A stretch of 45,548 bases of DNA from Candidatus Bathyarchaeota archaeon (lineage in GTDB: Archaea > Thermoproteota > Bathyarchaeia > 40CM-2-53-6). Under the pieces are notes generated by a model. It was not told where the DNA came from. It saw only the letters and a list, made by a program, of their open reading frames with translations, and made no database searches. The position numbers were made by a program, and so were the translations under genes. This document shows positions 8,349 through 14,881 of this stretch, piece by piece. The stretch spans positions 1 to 45,548 of the forward strand of contig VBBQ01000012.1 of NCBI GenBank assembly GCA_005888755.1, given 5' to 3'. Position 1 is the stretch's first letter. Each line of letters starts with the position of its first letter.

Positions 8349-9053
8349 ATGACCGAGGGGAAGCCGGGTCGCCTGGGCTGGACTGAAATCCGAGTCTTCA
8401 TCGAAAGACGACCCTGGTCCGTCTTATCATGGTCAGCCGGCCTATCCGCATTGGCTTTCATCGTGTTCTACGGGCTGCAAGCCACGACGAACCCGCAAGT
8501 AGGGATACAATTCGTCCAGTCGGAGTGGCCTGATCCGTCGATCTTTCCCTATTTCTACGCAAAACCGATAACCTGGTTCGCTTACTTCAGCTTCGTATAC
8601 TGGGCCGCGGGCCTCGAATCAAACAAAGATCATTTGCTCAAACTTTCCCCGAGAGCTCGAAACATCCTCTTCCTCGCCACAGCCCTCGTCGCTTTCGCCT
8701 CATTCTACGAGATTTTCTATAACTTCATGGTCTGGTTAGCTCTGGAAGTTCTAACGACGAATTGCAAACCCTTCCCCTGCAACCCAGACCAGGTGGCAAG
8801 TATTTTCGATCTCCGAAGCCCACTCAACCTAGTTTTCGCAACAAAGATCGTGACCACAGCTTTCGGTTTGTCTATGTACTCGCTATGGTTCCTTCACCGC
8901 GTGGACGTGGAGACGGAAAGGCGAAATCAGACGACAGCGACTCTCCCTGGGGATGTGAAGGCCCCTTTGCCCAGCCCATCAAGGAAACGTATAGAAATCG
9001 AAGCCGGCCTCGCTGCCCAGAAACCGATAGATCCAACTGTAGACCAAACCTGA
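8349..9053 (+). CDS. Multipass membrane protein of unknown function
   Basis: A 234-residue protein with four likely membrane segments (about 28-46, 71-88, 101-131 and 158-180) and a polar C-terminal tail of about 50 residues rich in Pro, Arg and Glu. An extracellular or lumenal loop carries T-N-C-K-P-F-P-C-N-P, where two close cysteines may form a disulfide. I do not recognise a family. It ends 25 nt before the geranylgeranyl reductase gene and points the same way, so it may be the first gene of the lipid block, but this rests on position alone. Confidence 0.6.
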   Translation: MTEGKPGRLGWTEIRVFIERRPWSVLSWSAGLSALAFIVFYGLQATTNPQVGIQFVQSEWPDPSIFPYFYAKPITWFAYFSFVYWAAGLESNKDHLLKLSPRARNILFLATALVAFASFYEIFYNFMVWLALEVLTTNCKPFPCNPDQVASIFDLRSPLNLVFATKIVTTAFGLSMYSLWFLHRVDVETERRNQTTATLPGDVKAPLPSPSRKRIEIEAGLAAQKPIDPTVDQT

Positions 9054-9078: not shown

Positions 9079-10242
9079 TTGGAAACCTATGATGTAGCCG
9101 TAATCGGAGCTGGTCCCGCAGGAGTGATGGCCGCGTGGAAATCAGCCGAATCACACGCGAGAACCTTGTTGATAGAACGAGAAGGTTCTCCCGGAAAGAA
9201 AGTTTGTGCTGAGGGAGTATTGGCAGACGCTCTTACTGACGCGGAGGTTAAGCCGTTACCTAAGTTTGTAGCCAACGAAATTTCCGGGGCGTTCCTCTAC
9301 GCTCCAGATGAAGCGAAGAGAGTGAATGTTGGCGGCGAAGGCTACATTCTTGACAAGCCAGCATTTCTCAGAGTCCTTGCCGACCGGGCCGAAAAGGCTG
9401 GCGCAGTAGCAAGATACTCAACCTCTGTAGAGGATATCGAGCGACAAGATGGATTGATTGAGATCCGGAGCAAGACGGATGGAGAGCCCAGCTCGGCAAA
9501 AGCGAGAGTTGTCATAGGATGCGATGGAACGGGGTCTATACTGGCTAGGCGGTTCTTTCCGCGAAAGAACTACCAAGCGATTACAGCTTTGCAATACTCG
9601 ATGACCAATTGCGAGGTCGAGGACGAGTCAAAACTGGAGATCTACGTCGGACACGAAAAAGCACCCGCTGGTTACATCTGGGTGTTTCCTAAGGGAAAAG
9701 GCGATGCGAACGTGGGCATCGGCGTGAAGGGAGCTGGGGCGAAGATGCTTCTCGACAAGTTCATCGACAAACACCCCAAGGCGTTCGGCTCTGCTCAGGT
9801 AGAACGGACCCTTGCCGCGCCCGTTCCCGTCGGAGGGGAGGTCGAGAGTTATGTTGCTGACAACATGATGCTTTGCGGTGACGCGGCAGGACAAGTTATA
9901 CCGCTGACTGGAGCGGGAATTCACACTGGGCTGGTGGCTGGAAGGATTGCTGGCGAAGAAGCAGCCATCTGTGCCCTAAGCGGGAACACGTCGGCAGAGA
10001 ATCTGAACCACTACCGAGATAGATTCGACAAGCTGTGGGGACAGCGTATATCCAACAGTCTGAGAGCACTTGACTCCTTCGAAAGATTCTCGGATCCAGA
10101 GCTCAACATCATAACGGGCCTATTGGAGGGGCAAGATCTGGTTGAGATGGCAAACGGCTTCAGCCCCACTCGAGCGGTTGGACTACTTGCACGACACCCT
10201 CTCCTAGCGATGAAGGTCGCCTACCAACTATTGACAGGATAG
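9079..10242 (+). CDS. Geranylgeranyl reductase family FAD protein (digeranylgeranylglycerophospholipid reductase)
   Basis: A 387-residue flavoprotein that saturates the geranylgeranyl chains of archaeal lipid precursors. The FAD-binding G-A-G-P-A-G is at 10-15 after a beta strand, followed by the ER of the second strand. The K-V-C-A-E-G-V motif with Cys43 is typical of archaeal GGR, as are the central G-Y-I-W-V-F-P-K-G and the later G-D-A-A-G-Q-V-I-P-L-T-G-A-G-I-H-T-G, which contacts FAD phosphate. The start is TTG 9079 (M-E-T-Y-D-V), the only one giving a full Rossmann strand. GGGPS starts 12 nt after its stop, so the two are an operon. Confidence 0.93.
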   Translation: METYDVAVIGAGPAGVMAAWKSAESHARTLLIEREGSPGKKVCAEGVLADALTDAEVKPLPKFVANEISGAFLYAPDEAKRVNVGGEGYILDKPAFLRVLADRAEKAGAVARYSTSVEDIERQDGLIEIRSKTDGEPSSAKARVVIGCDGTGSILARRFFPRKNYQAITALQYSMTNCEVEDESKLEIYVGHEKAPAGYIWVFPKGKGDANVGIGVKGAGAKMLLDKFIDKHPKAFGSAQVERTLAAPVPVGGEVESYVADNMMLCGDAAGQVIPLTGAGIHTGLVAGRIAGEEAAICALSGNTSAENLNHYRDRFDKLWGQRISNSLRALDSFERFSDPELNIITGLLEGQDLVEMANGFSPTRAVGLLARHPLLAMKVAYQLLTG

Positions 10243-10254
10243 AAGGAAAGGCAA

Positions 10255-10995
10255 ATGGGACCTGTAGAGTCTTCCTTGCGTTCCGCGATCAAGGAACAAG
10301 GTTGCATTCACTTGTCGCTCATTGACCCTGAGAAGTTCACAGGACGTCTGTCAAAATCGCTAGAAGACCTCCAGAGTTGGGGGACAGCGGCCATAATGGT
10401 GGGCGGCTCTACCGTCAGCTCAGTAGATCAGCTCAACGGAACAGTGAAGAAAATCAAGGAGCTAACCAACCTCCCAGTCATCCTCTTTCCAAACGGTCCC
10501 AGCGGCGTGAGTCGTTTCGCGGATGCAATATTCTTCATGTCCCTTCTCAACTCATCCACTCCTCGATTTCTGATCCGTGCCCAAGCGAAAGGTGCTCCAT
10601 CAGTGAAGCGATTCAAGCTCGAACCAATTCCCTTGGGATACCTGGTAGTCGGAGACTCGAACACTGCTGTGAGCTCTGTGGGAAGAGCGAACAGAATTCC
10701 GTATTCTAAGTCTGAATTGGCAGCCGCCTACGCCCTTGCCGCCCAATACTTGGGGATGCGATTTGTCTACCTCGAAGCAGGGAGTGGAGCCGAACACCCG
10801 GTGGAAACGAGCATGGTTCACCAGGTCTCTTCCGACTTGGACATTCCGGTAATCGTAGGAGGAGGTATTCGAACACCCGAGCAAGCGCGCGCGTTGGCAA
10901 AGGCGGGAGCATCAGCTATTGTGACCGGGACCCTTCTTGAACAACAAGGACCCGGTCCAGTGAAGAATATCGTATCAGCCATGAGACGCGCCTAG
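10255..10995 (+). CDS. Geranylgeranylglyceryl phosphate synthase
   Basis: A 246-residue TIM barrel that joins geranylgeranyl diphosphate to glycerol-1-phosphate, the first ether bond of archaeal lipids. Visible signatures: H-L-S-L-I-D-P-E-K (metal and substrate Asp), A-I-M-V-G-G-S, I-L-F-P-N-G-P-S-G, F-V-Y-L-E-A-G-S-G-A and the phosphate-binding V-I-V-G-G-G-I-R-T-P-E-Q-A with A-I-V-T-G-T. The length is usual. It lies between GGR and DUF2070 with 10-12 nt gaps, and the G1PDH that makes its substrate is two genes further on. Confidence 0.95.
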   Translation: MGPVESSLRSAIKEQGCIHLSLIDPEKFTGRLSKSLEDLQSWGTAAIMVGGSTVSSVDQLNGTVKKIKELTNLPVILFPNGPSGVSRFADAIFFMSLLNSSTPRFLIRAQAKGAPSVKRFKLEPIPLGYLVVGDSNTAVSSVGRANRIPYSKSELAAAYALAAQYLGMRFVYLEAGSGAEHPVETSMVHQVSSDLDIPVIVGGGIRTPEQARALAKAGASAIVTGTLLEQQGPGPVKNIVSAMRRA

Positions 10996-11005
10996 TGGAT
11001 ACGTC

Positions 11006-12838
11006 GTGGCTCAAGAGGCTACTGAGGGCGTAGGTGGCACCGTTGGCGCATTCAATTTCATCCGACGAGTAGGATTTCCATCGACGCCTGAAGTTCTCTC
11101 AGCCTTCCTAACACTCGCAGTGCTTGCATCGATTCTTGCACTTCCCCTGGCGGGTGTCGATCTTCAAGCGGCGCTGCTCTTCCCCTTGACTGTCGTCTTG
11201 ATTCCGACCATTATCGGGGAAGCCCTGAACTCAGCGACGATTCTTCATGGGGACAAGGTTCTGAACTTTCGTCGGCTGATCGGACTGGAGATCCTATCGT
11301 GGTTCCCGCTGGTCGCGGCACTGCCCCTCGGAGCGATCGCAGGGGCCATCGCTTCGAACACAACGTTTTGGGCGGATGGATTTTTCATGGTACTGGTATT
11401 TTCTTTGCCAATCAGGTTCCTCACAGTTGCCTCGATCTCATCAATGCCATCGTGGAAGAAACTCTCGGCGTCAGCATTGCCACCAATTCTTTCGATCGTC
11501 TCCTTCCTGATCATCGGTCCCACGGTCGGTATTGCAGACGTTGCGAGTGCTCTCTTCATGCGTGGAACAGCGGCATCGGTGGTAGGCATCGTTCTCTCCG
11601 CAGCCGGCGTGTCGAGGATCATACGTGACGTAGAAAAATCAGGCACTCCAGAAGTTAGGGATTCTCCGTTGACGCTCTTCAGGGTATTCCTTCAACACTG
11701 GCTAAGGTCCGACCCAGAGCCACTGGAGAGCCGACTCGGTGCGCTGGGGACCCAAGGAGTGATTGAAGGCTCGATTCTCAGCTTCTCTGACACGAAAGGA
11801 GCTGTTGGATCCGTTGTGGTATCGAACTTCCATCCAGGGCCTTATCGCGACCTTGGCAGTGCAGGTCTCCCTTCCCGGCTGAAAGCGTCCCTTGAGAGAT
11901 CGAAAGGAGGAGTTGTCCAGGTCCCACATGGAATCTCAAACCATCAGTTGAACATCGTTTCGCAAAAGGACGTGCAGAGGGTCATAGAGAAGGTTGTGGA
12001 ACAGTATCCTGTTGGAACTCCAGTTCACGACTCCAGCGCCATGATTAGGTCCGCGGTAGATGAGGCCAAAATATCTGGCCAGATTTTCGGTAATGTCGCA
12101 TTTCTCACCTTGACTCTCTCACCTACAGACATGGAAGACTTGCCCGATGAGGTTGCCCGTGAAATCGAGCGGGAATCGCAAGCACGGGGCCTGACGGCTA
12201 TCGTCGCAGATGCCCACAACAGCCTTTCAAATCAAACCTCAATAACCCCCGAACAGGCACGAAAGCTCGTTGAGGCGTCAGTCAAAGTGCTGGACCAGCT
12301 GACTCTCGCCCGAAGATCGCCGTTCAGAGCAGGGTCAGCATCAGATCCTTTGGAAGAGTTTCACCTTGAAGACGGGATCGGTCCAGGCGGACTTTCCTCG
12401 CTCGTAGTACGGAACGGAAACCAGATTGTTGCCTATCTGACCATCGACGGGAACAATATGAAAACAGGAGTAAGAGAGACCATTCTGCGAGACCTCGAAA
12501 CGATAGGAATTTCCGACGGCGAAATAATGACGACTGACACACATCTGGTGACAGGGCTCGTCAGGTCAAATCTCGGATACTACCCAGTCGGAGCTCATGC
12601 TGATCTCGGACTGTTGACCCAGAAGGTGAGAGAAACGGTTCAGCGCGCGATGGCGACGATGGAAGAATCCACCGCAGGTTTCTCCAAATTCTCGATTGAA
12701 GTGCGAGTCCTCGGGTCGGAAACTTTTCAGACTATTACAGGTTTCGTGGGCCGCATTGCAAGACGTATTGCGCGCCAATTCTATATGCTTGAAGTGCTAA
12801 CCCTCGCGGTCACACTAGTCATCCTGTTCTTCCCGTGA
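11006..12838 (+). CDS. DUF2070 family integral membrane protein
   Basis: A 610-residue DUF2070 protein of unknown function. Residues 30-205 hold about six membrane helices, 240-590 form a large soluble domain, and 594-610 is a last helix ending F-F-P. The soluble domain has spaced His/Asp motifs: FHPGPYRD (275-282), HGISNHQ (308-314), ADAHNS (401-406), IDGNN (480-484), TTDTH (509-513) and GAHAD (529-533). That is the look of a metal-dependent hydrolase or phosphatase, which is inference. It starts at GTG 11006 only 10 nt after GGGPS and its stop overlaps the G1PDH start (GTGA, 12835-12838). Tight packing between two ether-lipid enzymes suggests a role in lipid or isoprenoid metabolism. Confidence 0.9.
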   Translation: MAQEATEGVGGTVGAFNFIRRVGFPSTPEVLSAFLTLAVLASILALPLAGVDLQAALLFPLTVVLIPTIIGEALNSATILHGDKVLNFRRLIGLEILSWFPLVAALPLGAIAGAIASNTTFWADGFFMVLVFSLPIRFLTVASISSMPSWKKLSASALPPILSIVSFLIIGPTVGIADVASALFMRGTAASVVGIVLSAAGVSRIIRDVEKSGTPEVRDSPLTLFRVFLQHWLRSDPEPLESRLGALGTQGVIEGSILSFSDTKGAVGSVVVSNFHPGPYRDLGSAGLPSRLKASLERSKGGVVQVPHGISNHQLNIVSQKDVQRVIEKVVEQYPVGTPVHDSSAMIRSAVDEAKISGQIFGNVAFLTLTLSPTDMEDLPDEVAREIERESQARGLTAIVADAHNSLSNQTSITPEQARKLVEASVKVLDQLTLARRSPFRAGSASDPLEEFHLEDGIGPGGLSSLVVRNGNQIVAYLTIDGNNMKTGVRETILRDLETIGISDGEIMTTDTHLVTGLVRSNLGYYPVGAHADLGLLTQKVRETVQRAMATMEESTAGFSKFSIEVRVLGSETFQTITGFVGRIARRIARQFYMLEVLTLAVTLVILFFP

Positions 12839-13908
12839 CGACCATGGAAGCAGACGATTCCCTACACTACATGCAGCTTCCACGAGAAGTCATAGTAGGC
12901 AAGAATGTCCTAGGCCGGATCGGGGAGGTTTGCGCACGGCTTGGCTATACTGGTATGGCCCTCGTGGTGTCTGGTCCAGTGACCTACCCGCTTGCCGGCG
13001 AGCCTGTTGCGAAATCAGTTGTAAAGGCCGGTTTGAAAGTGGACCATGTTATCGCCAAAGAATCGACTGAGGTGGTCGTAACTCACGTCATAGGATCGAT
13101 TAAGCGTACAAAGGCTTCGATTGTCCTGGGTGTTGGTGGCGGCAAGGATATCGACGTGGCAAAACTCGCGTCAGCCAAAGCTTCTGTTCCCTTCATTAGC
13201 ATTCCCACAGCAGGAAGCCACGACGGAATCGCAAGTCCATACGCTTCGATCAAGGGCGGCTCAAGGCCCTACTCGATTAGGGCACAAGCACCGGTCGCAA
13301 TCCTCACCGATATCGATGTCATAGCCGATTCACCCTACAACTTGCTGGCGGCAGGCTGTGCGGACATCGTTGCCAAGTTTACAGCTGTTAAGGACTGGCA
13401 GCTCGCCCACAAACTGAAGAACGAGTACTACGGCGACTACGCAGCCGAACTCGCACTCATGAGTGCTGAGCTTGTTACCAAGAACGCTAAGGAGATCCTC
13501 AAGCGAAACATCGAAGGCGTCAGAACAGTTGTAGAGGCGCTGATAAGTTGCGGCGTGGCAATGAGCATAGCGGGGAGCTCCAGACCTTGCAGTGGGTCGG
13601 AACACTTGTTCAGTCATGCCCTTGACATTGTGGCCGGTGAGACGAGTCTGCATGGGGAGAGAACCGGTGTTGGCGCAATCTTGTGCGCTTATCTCCAAGG
13701 GTCTAACTGGGAAGCAATTCGAGCATTTCTGAAGGAGATTGGAGCGCCTTCAACTGCTAAGGAGCTTAACGTCTCCTCTGAACAATTGGTCAGGGCCCTG
13801 ATGATGGCTCATAGTCTGCGTCCCGAACGATATACTATTCTTGGTGAGACGGGAGTGGCTGAGGCTGCGGCGGAGAAGGTCGCTCGGACTACAGGCGTCA
13901 TTGGGTAG
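12835..13908 (+). CDS. egsA: sn-Glycerol-1-phosphate dehydrogenase (NAD(P)+)
   Basis: A 357-residue iron-alcohol-dehydrogenase-fold enzyme that reduces dihydroxyacetone phosphate to sn-glycerol-1-phosphate, setting archaeal lipid stereochemistry. The NAD(P) motif G-V-G-G-G-K-D-I-D is at 99-107 and I-P-T-A-G-S-H-D-G-I-A-S at 123-134. The zinc ligands are Asp177 (G-C-A-D), His257 (S-E-H) and His273 (S-L-H-G-E-R). The GTG start overlaps the DUF2070 stop by 4 nt; ATG 12844 is an alternative three codons in. The next gene overlaps its 3' end. Confidence 0.96.
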   Translation: MTTMEADDSLHYMQLPREVIVGKNVLGRIGEVCARLGYTGMALVVSGPVTYPLAGEPVAKSVVKAGLKVDHVIAKESTEVVVTHVIGSIKRTKASIVLGVGGGKDIDVAKLASAKASVPFISIPTAGSHDGIASPYASIKGGSRPYSIRAQAPVAILTDIDVIADSPYNLLAAGCADIVAKFTAVKDWQLAHKLKNEYYGDYAAELALMSAELVTKNAKEILKRNIEGVRTVVEALISCGVAMSIAGSSRPCSGSEHLFSHALDIVAGETSLHGERTGVGAILCAYLQGSNWEAIRAFLKEIGAPSTAKELNVSSEQLVRALMMAHSLRPERYTILGETGVAEAAAEKVARTTGVIG

Positions 13909-14881
13909 GGCATTGAAGAGTTCCGCTCGCGCTTATGCGATTCAAGGGCTCGTGAAATACCATGGTCTCCGGAACGAGAGACTGCGGCTGCCATTTCACG
14001 ACAGCATATCTGTATGCATGAAAGCGCTTCCCACGATCACGACAGTAGCGTTCAGCCGAGAGTTCGTTGATGATCGTATCAGGATAAACGGCAAGTCACC
14101 TTCACGGAAGGAACAGGATAGAGTGCTGGCGGTCGTTAACCATCTCCGACACTCGTCTCCTCTGGGGTCCGTGAAAGCAAGAGTAGAATCCAGGAACCCT
14201 GACGTCAAGGGCAAGGGACTGGGATTCTCAGCCTCTGGATTCGCTGCGTTGGGACTCGCAACGGCAAGAGCGTTGGAGCTGGATATCAAGACGTCTGAGC
14301 TTTCTGAAGTTGTTAGATTGGGCGCTGGTTCTGCTTCACGCAGTTTAGCGGGGGGCTTCTCCATTTGGTACGCGAACAGAAACGGTCGTTCCTATGCGGA
14401 AGAGCTTGCATCTGCTAGCTCAATCAAACTAAGAACGATAATTGTTCCGATAGAGTCAGAAATCAAAACGGATAGAGCTCACGCTGACGCTGTCAAGTCC
14501 CCATTTTTCAAACCACGACTAGTTTACCTTAGAAGTATTCTTCCACGGATGAAACGTGCGATTTCACACAAGGACGTGGAATCCATTGGAAAGCTAGCTG
14601 AAGAAGACACGTTGAACCTGCATGCAGTTACCATGACAGGTAAGGACGGATTGATTCTGCTCAGTCCACTATCTATCGAAATCATCCGAGAGGTGAGAAG
14701 ACTTCGAAAGGAAGACGAGTTCCCGGTTTGGTTCTCGCTAGACACTGGCCCATCGGTGTTCGTAAACACTACACCAGATGCTACCCAGTCAGTCCGAAGA
14801 AATCTCAGTAAGATTACAAATAACATCTTCGTCTCGGAGCCAGGTGGATCCGCTGAGATCATCGACAAGCACCTTTTCTAA
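13901..14881 (+). CDS. Diphosphomevalonate/phosphomevalonate decarboxylase family protein (GHMP kinase fold)
   Basis: A 326-residue protein, if started at TTG 13901, which overlaps the G1PDH stop by 8 nt; TTG 13913 is the other option. Family blocks are clear: ATP loop G-L-G-F-S-A-S-G-F-A-A-L (107-118), G-S-A-S-R-S-L-A-G-G-F (143-153) and the catalytic-Asp segment S-L-D-T-G-P-S at 279-285. The N-terminal motif that is K-Y-W-G-K-R in eukaryotic diphosphomevalonate decarboxylase reads K-Y-H-G-L-R (19-24), so the Lys that contacts the diphosphate is missing. Archaeal relatives act on mevalonate 5-phosphate, mevalonate 3,5-bisphosphate or mevalonate (3-kinase), so the substrate is open. It lies in the lipid operon, fitting isoprenoid supply. 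Confidence 0.85.
   Translation: MGRALKSSARAYAIQGLVKYHGLRNERLRLPFHDSISVCMKALPTITTVAFSREFVDDRIRINGKSPSRKEQDRVLAVVNHLRHSSPLGSVKARVESRNPDVKGKGLGFSASGFAALGLATARALELDIKTSELSEVVRLGAGSASRSLAGGFSIWYANRNGRSYAEELASASSIKLRTIIVPIESEIKTDRAHADAVKSPFFKPRLVYLRSILPRMKRAISHKDVESIGKLAEEDTLNLHAVTMTGKDGLILLSPLSIEIIREVRRLRKEDEFPVWFSLDTGPSVFVNTTPDATQSVRRNLSKITNNIFVSEPGGSAEIIDKHLF

Follow-up and report, generated by a model that had tools for sequence, protein, structure and literature searches.

Which reaction, if any, does a DUF2070 protein carry out when its gene is packed among those for archaeal ether-lipid synthesis? The question is raised by a window of 45,548 nucleotides (the whole stretch of DNA that was analysed) from a soil bathyarchaeon, whose closest named contigs are those of Candidatus Bathyarchaeota BA_23 and similar, at 85% protein identity. 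We know of no reported activity for DUF2070. The family presumably corresponds to COG3356, whose name is 'predicted membrane-associated lipid hydrolase, neutral ceramidase superfamily'. If that name is right, the relation to ceramidases may already have been proposed, and what is new here is the permuted order, the mapped ligands, the topology and the counts of gene neighbourhoods. A search covering part of the literature found no report of the permutation, and a full-text search, likewise of part of the literature, found no relevant paper on DUF2070 or COG3356. Neither 'ceramidase' nor COG3356 occurs in the text of PMC5898192, which surveyed archaeal membrane proteins of uncharacterised function in 2015, and we noticed no DUF2070 row in its Table 1.

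The locus and its DUF2070 protein

The gene lies in a run of genes on the forward strand:

9079..10242, forward strand: GGR, geranylgeranyl reductase family flavoprotein (TIGR02032, 209.8 bits, over the cut-off; PF22578)
10255..10995, forward strand: GGGPS, geranylgeranylglyceryl phosphate synthase (PF01884, E 6.7e-51)
11006..12838, forward strand: DUF2070 protein, 610 aa, GTG start, a proposed membrane-anchored ceramidase-like hydrolase (PF09843, E 1.1e-100)
12835..13908, forward strand: G1PDH, glycerol-1-phosphate dehydrogenase (NF002022, 470.7 bits, over the cut-off)
13841..14881, forward strand: mevalonate-decarboxylase-like (MVD-like) ORF (PF22700, E 2.9e-43, over the cut-off)

The first-pass annotation had described this tight order from GGR to the MVD-like ORF, and it is borne out by the profile matches, by gaps of 12 nt (GGR-GGGPS) and 10 nt (GGGPS-DUF2070), and by a 4-nt overlap of DUF2070 with G1PDH (GTGA, 12835-12838). 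GGGPS is also over the cut-off for TIGR01769, NF003198, PRK04169.1-2 and GGGP. DUF2070 is thus on the same strand as GGGPS and G1PDH and close to or overlapping both, which places it in an ether-lipid operon in the window. A glutamyl-tRNA synthetase gene comes next after the MVD-like ORF in the same-strand run, and no tRNA or Rfam features were found in the window.

Two of the surrounding ORFs deserve comment. The best match of the MVD-like ORF is phosphomevalonate decarboxylase MvaD (NF040704, 265.7 bits, under the cut-off of 475). Its PF22700 domain starts at residue 31. With a start at 13841 the ORF shares 68 nt with G1PDH, so that translation probably begins downstream of that position. 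Directly upstream of GGR, positions 8349-9053 (forward strand) encode a 234-aa hydrophobic protein that has no Pfam or NCBIfam match, occupies the same position in close relatives (11 loci), and may be part of the DUF2070 operon.

The match of the DUF2070 protein to PF09843 is full-length (residues 24-601, 338 bits against a cut-off of 30). Compared with the DUF2070/PF09843 (COG3356) family at large, the window protein is structurally the same, and it is the position of the gene between GGGPS and G1PDH that sets its lineage apart. All five motifs that the first-pass annotation had read as a hydrolase pattern are present, namely FHPGPYRD (residues 275-282), HGISNHQ (308-314), ADAHNS (401-406), TTDTH (509-513) and GAHAD (529-533). 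Judged by conservation in 159 aligned DUF2070 proteins, four of these are family signatures, whereas GAHAD is not: H276, H313, D511, H513, N483 and N484 are 100% conserved, D378 99%, H404 and N405 98%, and H308 85%, while H531, the GAHAD histidine, is conserved in just 8%. A further strongly conserved motif, IDGNNM (D481 96%, and the N483/N484 pair), had been missed.

A circularly permuted ceramidase-type domain

An AlphaFold2 model of the window protein, built from 72 sequences (mean pLDDT 90.8, pTM 0.87), consists of helices that run from the N-terminus to around residue 217, followed by an alpha/beta domain at 241-570 and a C-terminal helix at 571-608. The gene can accordingly be divided as follows:

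11084..11614, forward strand: N-terminal membrane part, six predicted transmembrane helices, residues 27-203 (model helices, hydropathy, positive-inside)
11726..12715, forward strand: soluble neutral-ceramidase-like domain, residues 241-570, predicted cytosolic (VIA fold match; positive-inside)
12770..12829, forward strand: C-terminal transmembrane helix, residues 589-608 (model helix 571-608; hydropathy 1.8)

Across the 72 sequences, Lys and Arg are dense at the N-terminus, in loops 80-91 and 137-150, in the link 204-240 and in the stretch 571-588; they are sparse in loops 46-52, 116-120 and 171-182. Because basic residues alternate in this way, the positive-inside rule predicts a cytosolic ceramidase-like domain anchored by about seven helices. 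Neutral ceramidases are secreted or face outwards, so that the predicted orientation of DUF2070 differs from theirs, as does its set of transmembrane helices. For the membrane part, matches to RND pumps (Z 5-5.7) were dropped as below a meaningful level. Two ORFs of about 310 aa elsewhere in the sample (G021:C18:31942-32478 and G037:C87:2005-2529) show matches below the cut-off that are confined to positions 12-189 of the DUF2070 profile, its membrane part, and are possible stand-alone relatives of the membrane module.

Among solved structures, the neutral ceramidases (PF04734) share the fold of the whole soluble domain. In the VIA comparison, the soluble part matches Pseudomonas aeruginosa ceramidase 2zws with Z 18.4 (276 residues aligned, 3.8 A), followed by 2zxc from the same species (Z 18.3) and the human enzyme 4wgk (Z 17.2), and the first non-ceramidase row in the search of the model has Z 5.7. 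Foldseek likewise ranks ceramidases first and second. The first-pass annotation had proposed a metal-dependent hydrolase on a membrane platform, to be checked by structure prediction against metallohydrolases; a match to neutral ceramidase at Z 17-18, together with the mapped ligands and the predicted topology, supports that proposal. Plain sequence search misses the relationship, which is therefore visible only by fold or profile-profile comparison: a sequence-profile search of the PDB gave nothing convincing (best E 0.19), the window protein has no match to the PF04734 model, and weak PF04734 matches occur in 4 of 72 DUF2070 relatives (best E 0.058).

The order of the parts was resolved by comparing, with hhalign, a profile of archaeal PF04734 proteins with DUF2070 profiles. 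These archaeal proteins share the catalytic-domain family of neutral ceramidase and are distant profile relatives of DUF2070. Unlike DUF2070, they have the linear order and are sporadic (44 of 300 Thermoproteota genomes), and none was found in the window's own genome. The initial comparison already paired the C-terminal part of DUF2070 with the N-terminal part of ceramidase, and two blocks are significant:

11759..11944, forward strand: residues 252-313, corresponding to ceramidase segment 171-239 (H204 region)
12392..12703, forward strand: residues 463-566, corresponding to the ceramidase N-terminal segment 38-142 (H97 region), moved to the C-terminus

The 463-566 block scores 58.1 (E 5.5e-7). 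The 252-313 block scores 39.6 in linear order (E 2e-4) and 36.9 alone, against shuffled-control maxima of 23.7 and 22.1, respectively. The two blocks stand in swapped order in the DUF2070 and ceramidase profiles, and when the DUF2070 profile is rotated, they merge at every cut tested (320 to 460) into a single alignment of 178-179 columns with a score of about 86 and E of about 7e-11, compared with at most 23.7 for 25 block-shuffled profiles and 13.7 for the reversed profile. Residues 412-570 were also folded alone (pLDDT 86.8), and the top four Foldseek matches are all ceramidase chains. By VIA, this piece lands on the N-terminal end of ceramidase (4wgk 100-242, 2zxc 2-161, 2zws 1-146). Nylon-oligomer hydrolases also reach Z of about 8 with it, so that this structure search is weak if taken alone, and the worth of the test is its landing place on ceramidase. 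From the swapped profile blocks and the fold of the C-terminal piece, the domain order of DUF2070 is circularly permuted relative to neutral ceramidase, and does not begin with the THTHSGP segment. A collinear order, which would put H276 at the THTHSGP motif, was first favoured as HPGP resembles HSGP; it was rejected, as the two significant blocks are swapped and the C-terminal piece, folded by itself, lands at the N-terminus of ceramidase. A third block, DUF2070 residues ~352-411 against ceramidase ~357-413 (the E411/Y448 segment), lies at the expected position and is suggestive, with a score of 17.1 beside a control maximum of 17.9.

The zinc ligands of P. aeruginosa ceramidase are H97, H204, E411 and Y448, a numbering that was checked against the amino acids found there in the sequence of the PDB chain. 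Mapping onto DUF2070 was made by alignment through the archaeal PF04734 proteins and gives the following candidates:

11831..11833, forward strand: H276 codon, proposed metal ligand, counterpart of H204 (alignment; 100% conserved)
12137..12139, forward strand: D378 codon, possible metal ligand, tentatively aligned with E411 in the third block, score 17.1 (99% conserved)
12215..12220, forward strand: H404-N405 codons, near the Y448 counterpart, role tentative (98% conserved; weak alignment)
12542..12544, forward strand: H513 codon, proposed metal ligand, counterpart of H97 (alignment; 100% conserved)

The computed alignment thus places H513 at the position of H97 and H276 at that of H204. Y448 itself aligns, in the low-scoring third block, with the non-conserved Q410. 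H313 is aligned to the Asp/Asn within the NGAxGD motif of ceramidase. DUF2070 is therefore ceramidase-like in fold and in two ligand positions, yet it is not classed here as a member of PF04734, because neither the domain order nor the Pfam threshold agrees.

Distribution and gene neighbourhood across archaea

DUF2070 was found in 234 of 250 Thermoproteota genomes and, among the archaeal controls, in Haloferax volcanii and Sulfolobus acidocaldarius. It was not found in the control methanogens Methanocaldococcus jannaschii and Methanosarcina acetivorans, and since these two are without the gene, DUF2070 is dispensable for core ether-lipid synthesis. Within the phylum sample, loss from a whole lineage is clearest in family f32, where DUF2070 is missing from all six near-complete genomes (G069, G110, G159, G284, G292 and G296).

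Linkage was counted in genomes where both genes were located, with a gene split across contigs scored as not near. On this basis, GGGPS adjoins DUF2070 in 3 of 53 families (f1, f3 and f4, all of one order, the same as the window's), and G1PDH adjoins it in 3 of 48, only f1, f3 and f4. Within these three, the GGGPS-DUF2070-G1PDH packing is present in 17 of 17 genomes with both flanks scorable. The tight operon probably arose in that one order, and such linkage was not kept across the archaea that carry DUF2070. A placement inside the ether-lipid operon, as first described, is thus true of the window and tight in just those three families. The first-pass annotation had also looked to enrichment beyond close relatives as a check, and this exists in a weak form only: GGGPS lies within 12 kb of DUF2070 in 20 of the 53 families, 17 of them beyond f1, f3 and f4 and with GGGPS 2-12 kb upstream. 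In all 43 genomes with a nearby pair, GGGPS is upstream and on the same strand; in the remaining families the two genes are unlinked. Between them in the wider set lie genes for the DNA polymerase D large subunit, MazG-like and LSm-like proteins, SHMT and others, names that were assigned by reading the sequences rather than by family search. Because these intervening genes are informational or housekeeping genes, the wider association is not a lipid operon but a gene cluster that is old and shared.

A different lipid gene adjoins DUF2070 in family f37, where the gene stands tail to tail with GGR in 7 of 7 genomes examined. One representative has a 21-nt overlap between the two genes, and its GGR reaches 740 bits where the equivalog cut-off is 580 (NF041080). 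A convergent neighbour is weaker evidence than an operon.

Other lipid-related observations came from the same survey. A membrane protein (cluster c36; L158-L164, f26 and others) is encoded directly downstream of GGGPS in several families; by eye it looks like a member of the dolichol-kinase or cytidylyltransferase family, which would make it a second lipid gene of the old cluster. Two nearly complete genomes of the window's order (G021 and G026, family f2) have GGGPS and DUF2070 and no convincing G1PDH by NF002022, and the sole G1PDH of family f5 is divergent (263-276 bits); possibly, the glycerol phosphate backbone is supplied there in another way.

Proposed function and its alternatives

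We consider it fairly probable that DUF2070 is an integral membrane protein whose permuted neutral-ceramidase-type domain faces the cytosol and acts as a metallo-amidase or hydrolase on a membrane lipid. The membrane helices would keep the ceramidase-like domain close to the inner leaflet. There a zinc-like metal would be bound by H276 and H513, together with a carboxylate (probably that of D378) and perhaps H404. The bound metal would activate water for the cleavage of an amide (or ester) bond in a lipid that the bilayer presents to the domain. Archaea are not known to contain ceramide, so that homology does not give the substrate. Since the gene is packed with GGGPS and G1PDH in three bathyarchaeal families, an archaeal polar or isoprenoid lipid appears likely, and the role would be one in remodelling or turnover rather than core synthesis. 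The connection to lipids made in the first-pass annotation is in this respect plausible, given the fold, the membrane anchor, the GGGPS and G1PDH neighbours in three families and the GGR neighbour in one other. More tentatively, and as a reading that we find possible without giving it even odds, DUF2070 might be a near-universal lipid-modifying enzyme of Thermoproteota, a permuted, membrane-embedded and cytosol-facing branch of the neutral ceramidase superfamily that works on ether or isoprenoid lipids in a maturation or turnover step which no known archaeal enzyme covers.

The substrate could also be something other than a lipid. A permuted ceramidase-like metallohydrolase might, at the membrane's cytosolic face, cut an amide of a peptide, sugar or small molecule, with the lipid-gene neighbours due to chance or inherited synteny; outside f1, f3 and f4 the neighbours are indeed the DNA polymerase D large subunit, MazG-like, LSm-like, SHMT and POR, and the distant fold neighbours of the C-terminal piece include amide-cutting nylon-oligomer hydrolases and aminopeptidases (Z 5-8). 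We regard this as unlikely, since for the whole domain ceramidase stands far above the other fold matches, and the GGGPS/G1PDH packing in all scorable f1, f3 and f4 genomes is joined by GGR adjacency in the separate family f37. Less probable still is a non-catalytic relative, in which the ceramidase fold would have been retained for lipid binding or regulation, as a scaffold that senses lipids or presents them to GGGPS and GGR. Just two of the four ceramidase ligands were mapped with confidence, as such a scaffold would allow, but the near-invariance of H276, H313, D378, H404, N405, N483, N484, D511 and H513 (n=159) is the pattern of an active site.

The first-pass annotation had itself guessed at a lipid-phosphate or isoprenoid-diphosphate activity, in favour of which the adjoining genes handle isoprenoid diphosphates and phospholipid precursors. 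That guess did not hold up: the fold is that of an amidase, an amide-bond hydrolase, and no established lipid-phosphatase family matches DUF2070 over its cut-off, so that we consider a phosphatase highly improbable.

With the cytosol-facing, ceramidase-like lipid hydrolase as the preferred reading, a gene carried by most genomes of an archaeal phylum (the 234 of 250 above) can be assigned a fold and a location as well as a probable active site. Its permutation is a clear case of domain rearrangement within an enzyme superfamily. Because Sulfolobus acidocaldarius and Haloferax volcanii carry the gene, its function is testable in a genetically tractable archaeon. And since archaeal membranes are not, to our knowledge, known to contain ceramide, a ceramidase-like enzyme at the inner membrane face would point to an unrecognised amide- or ester-bearing lipid, or to an unrecognised step of lipid remodelling.
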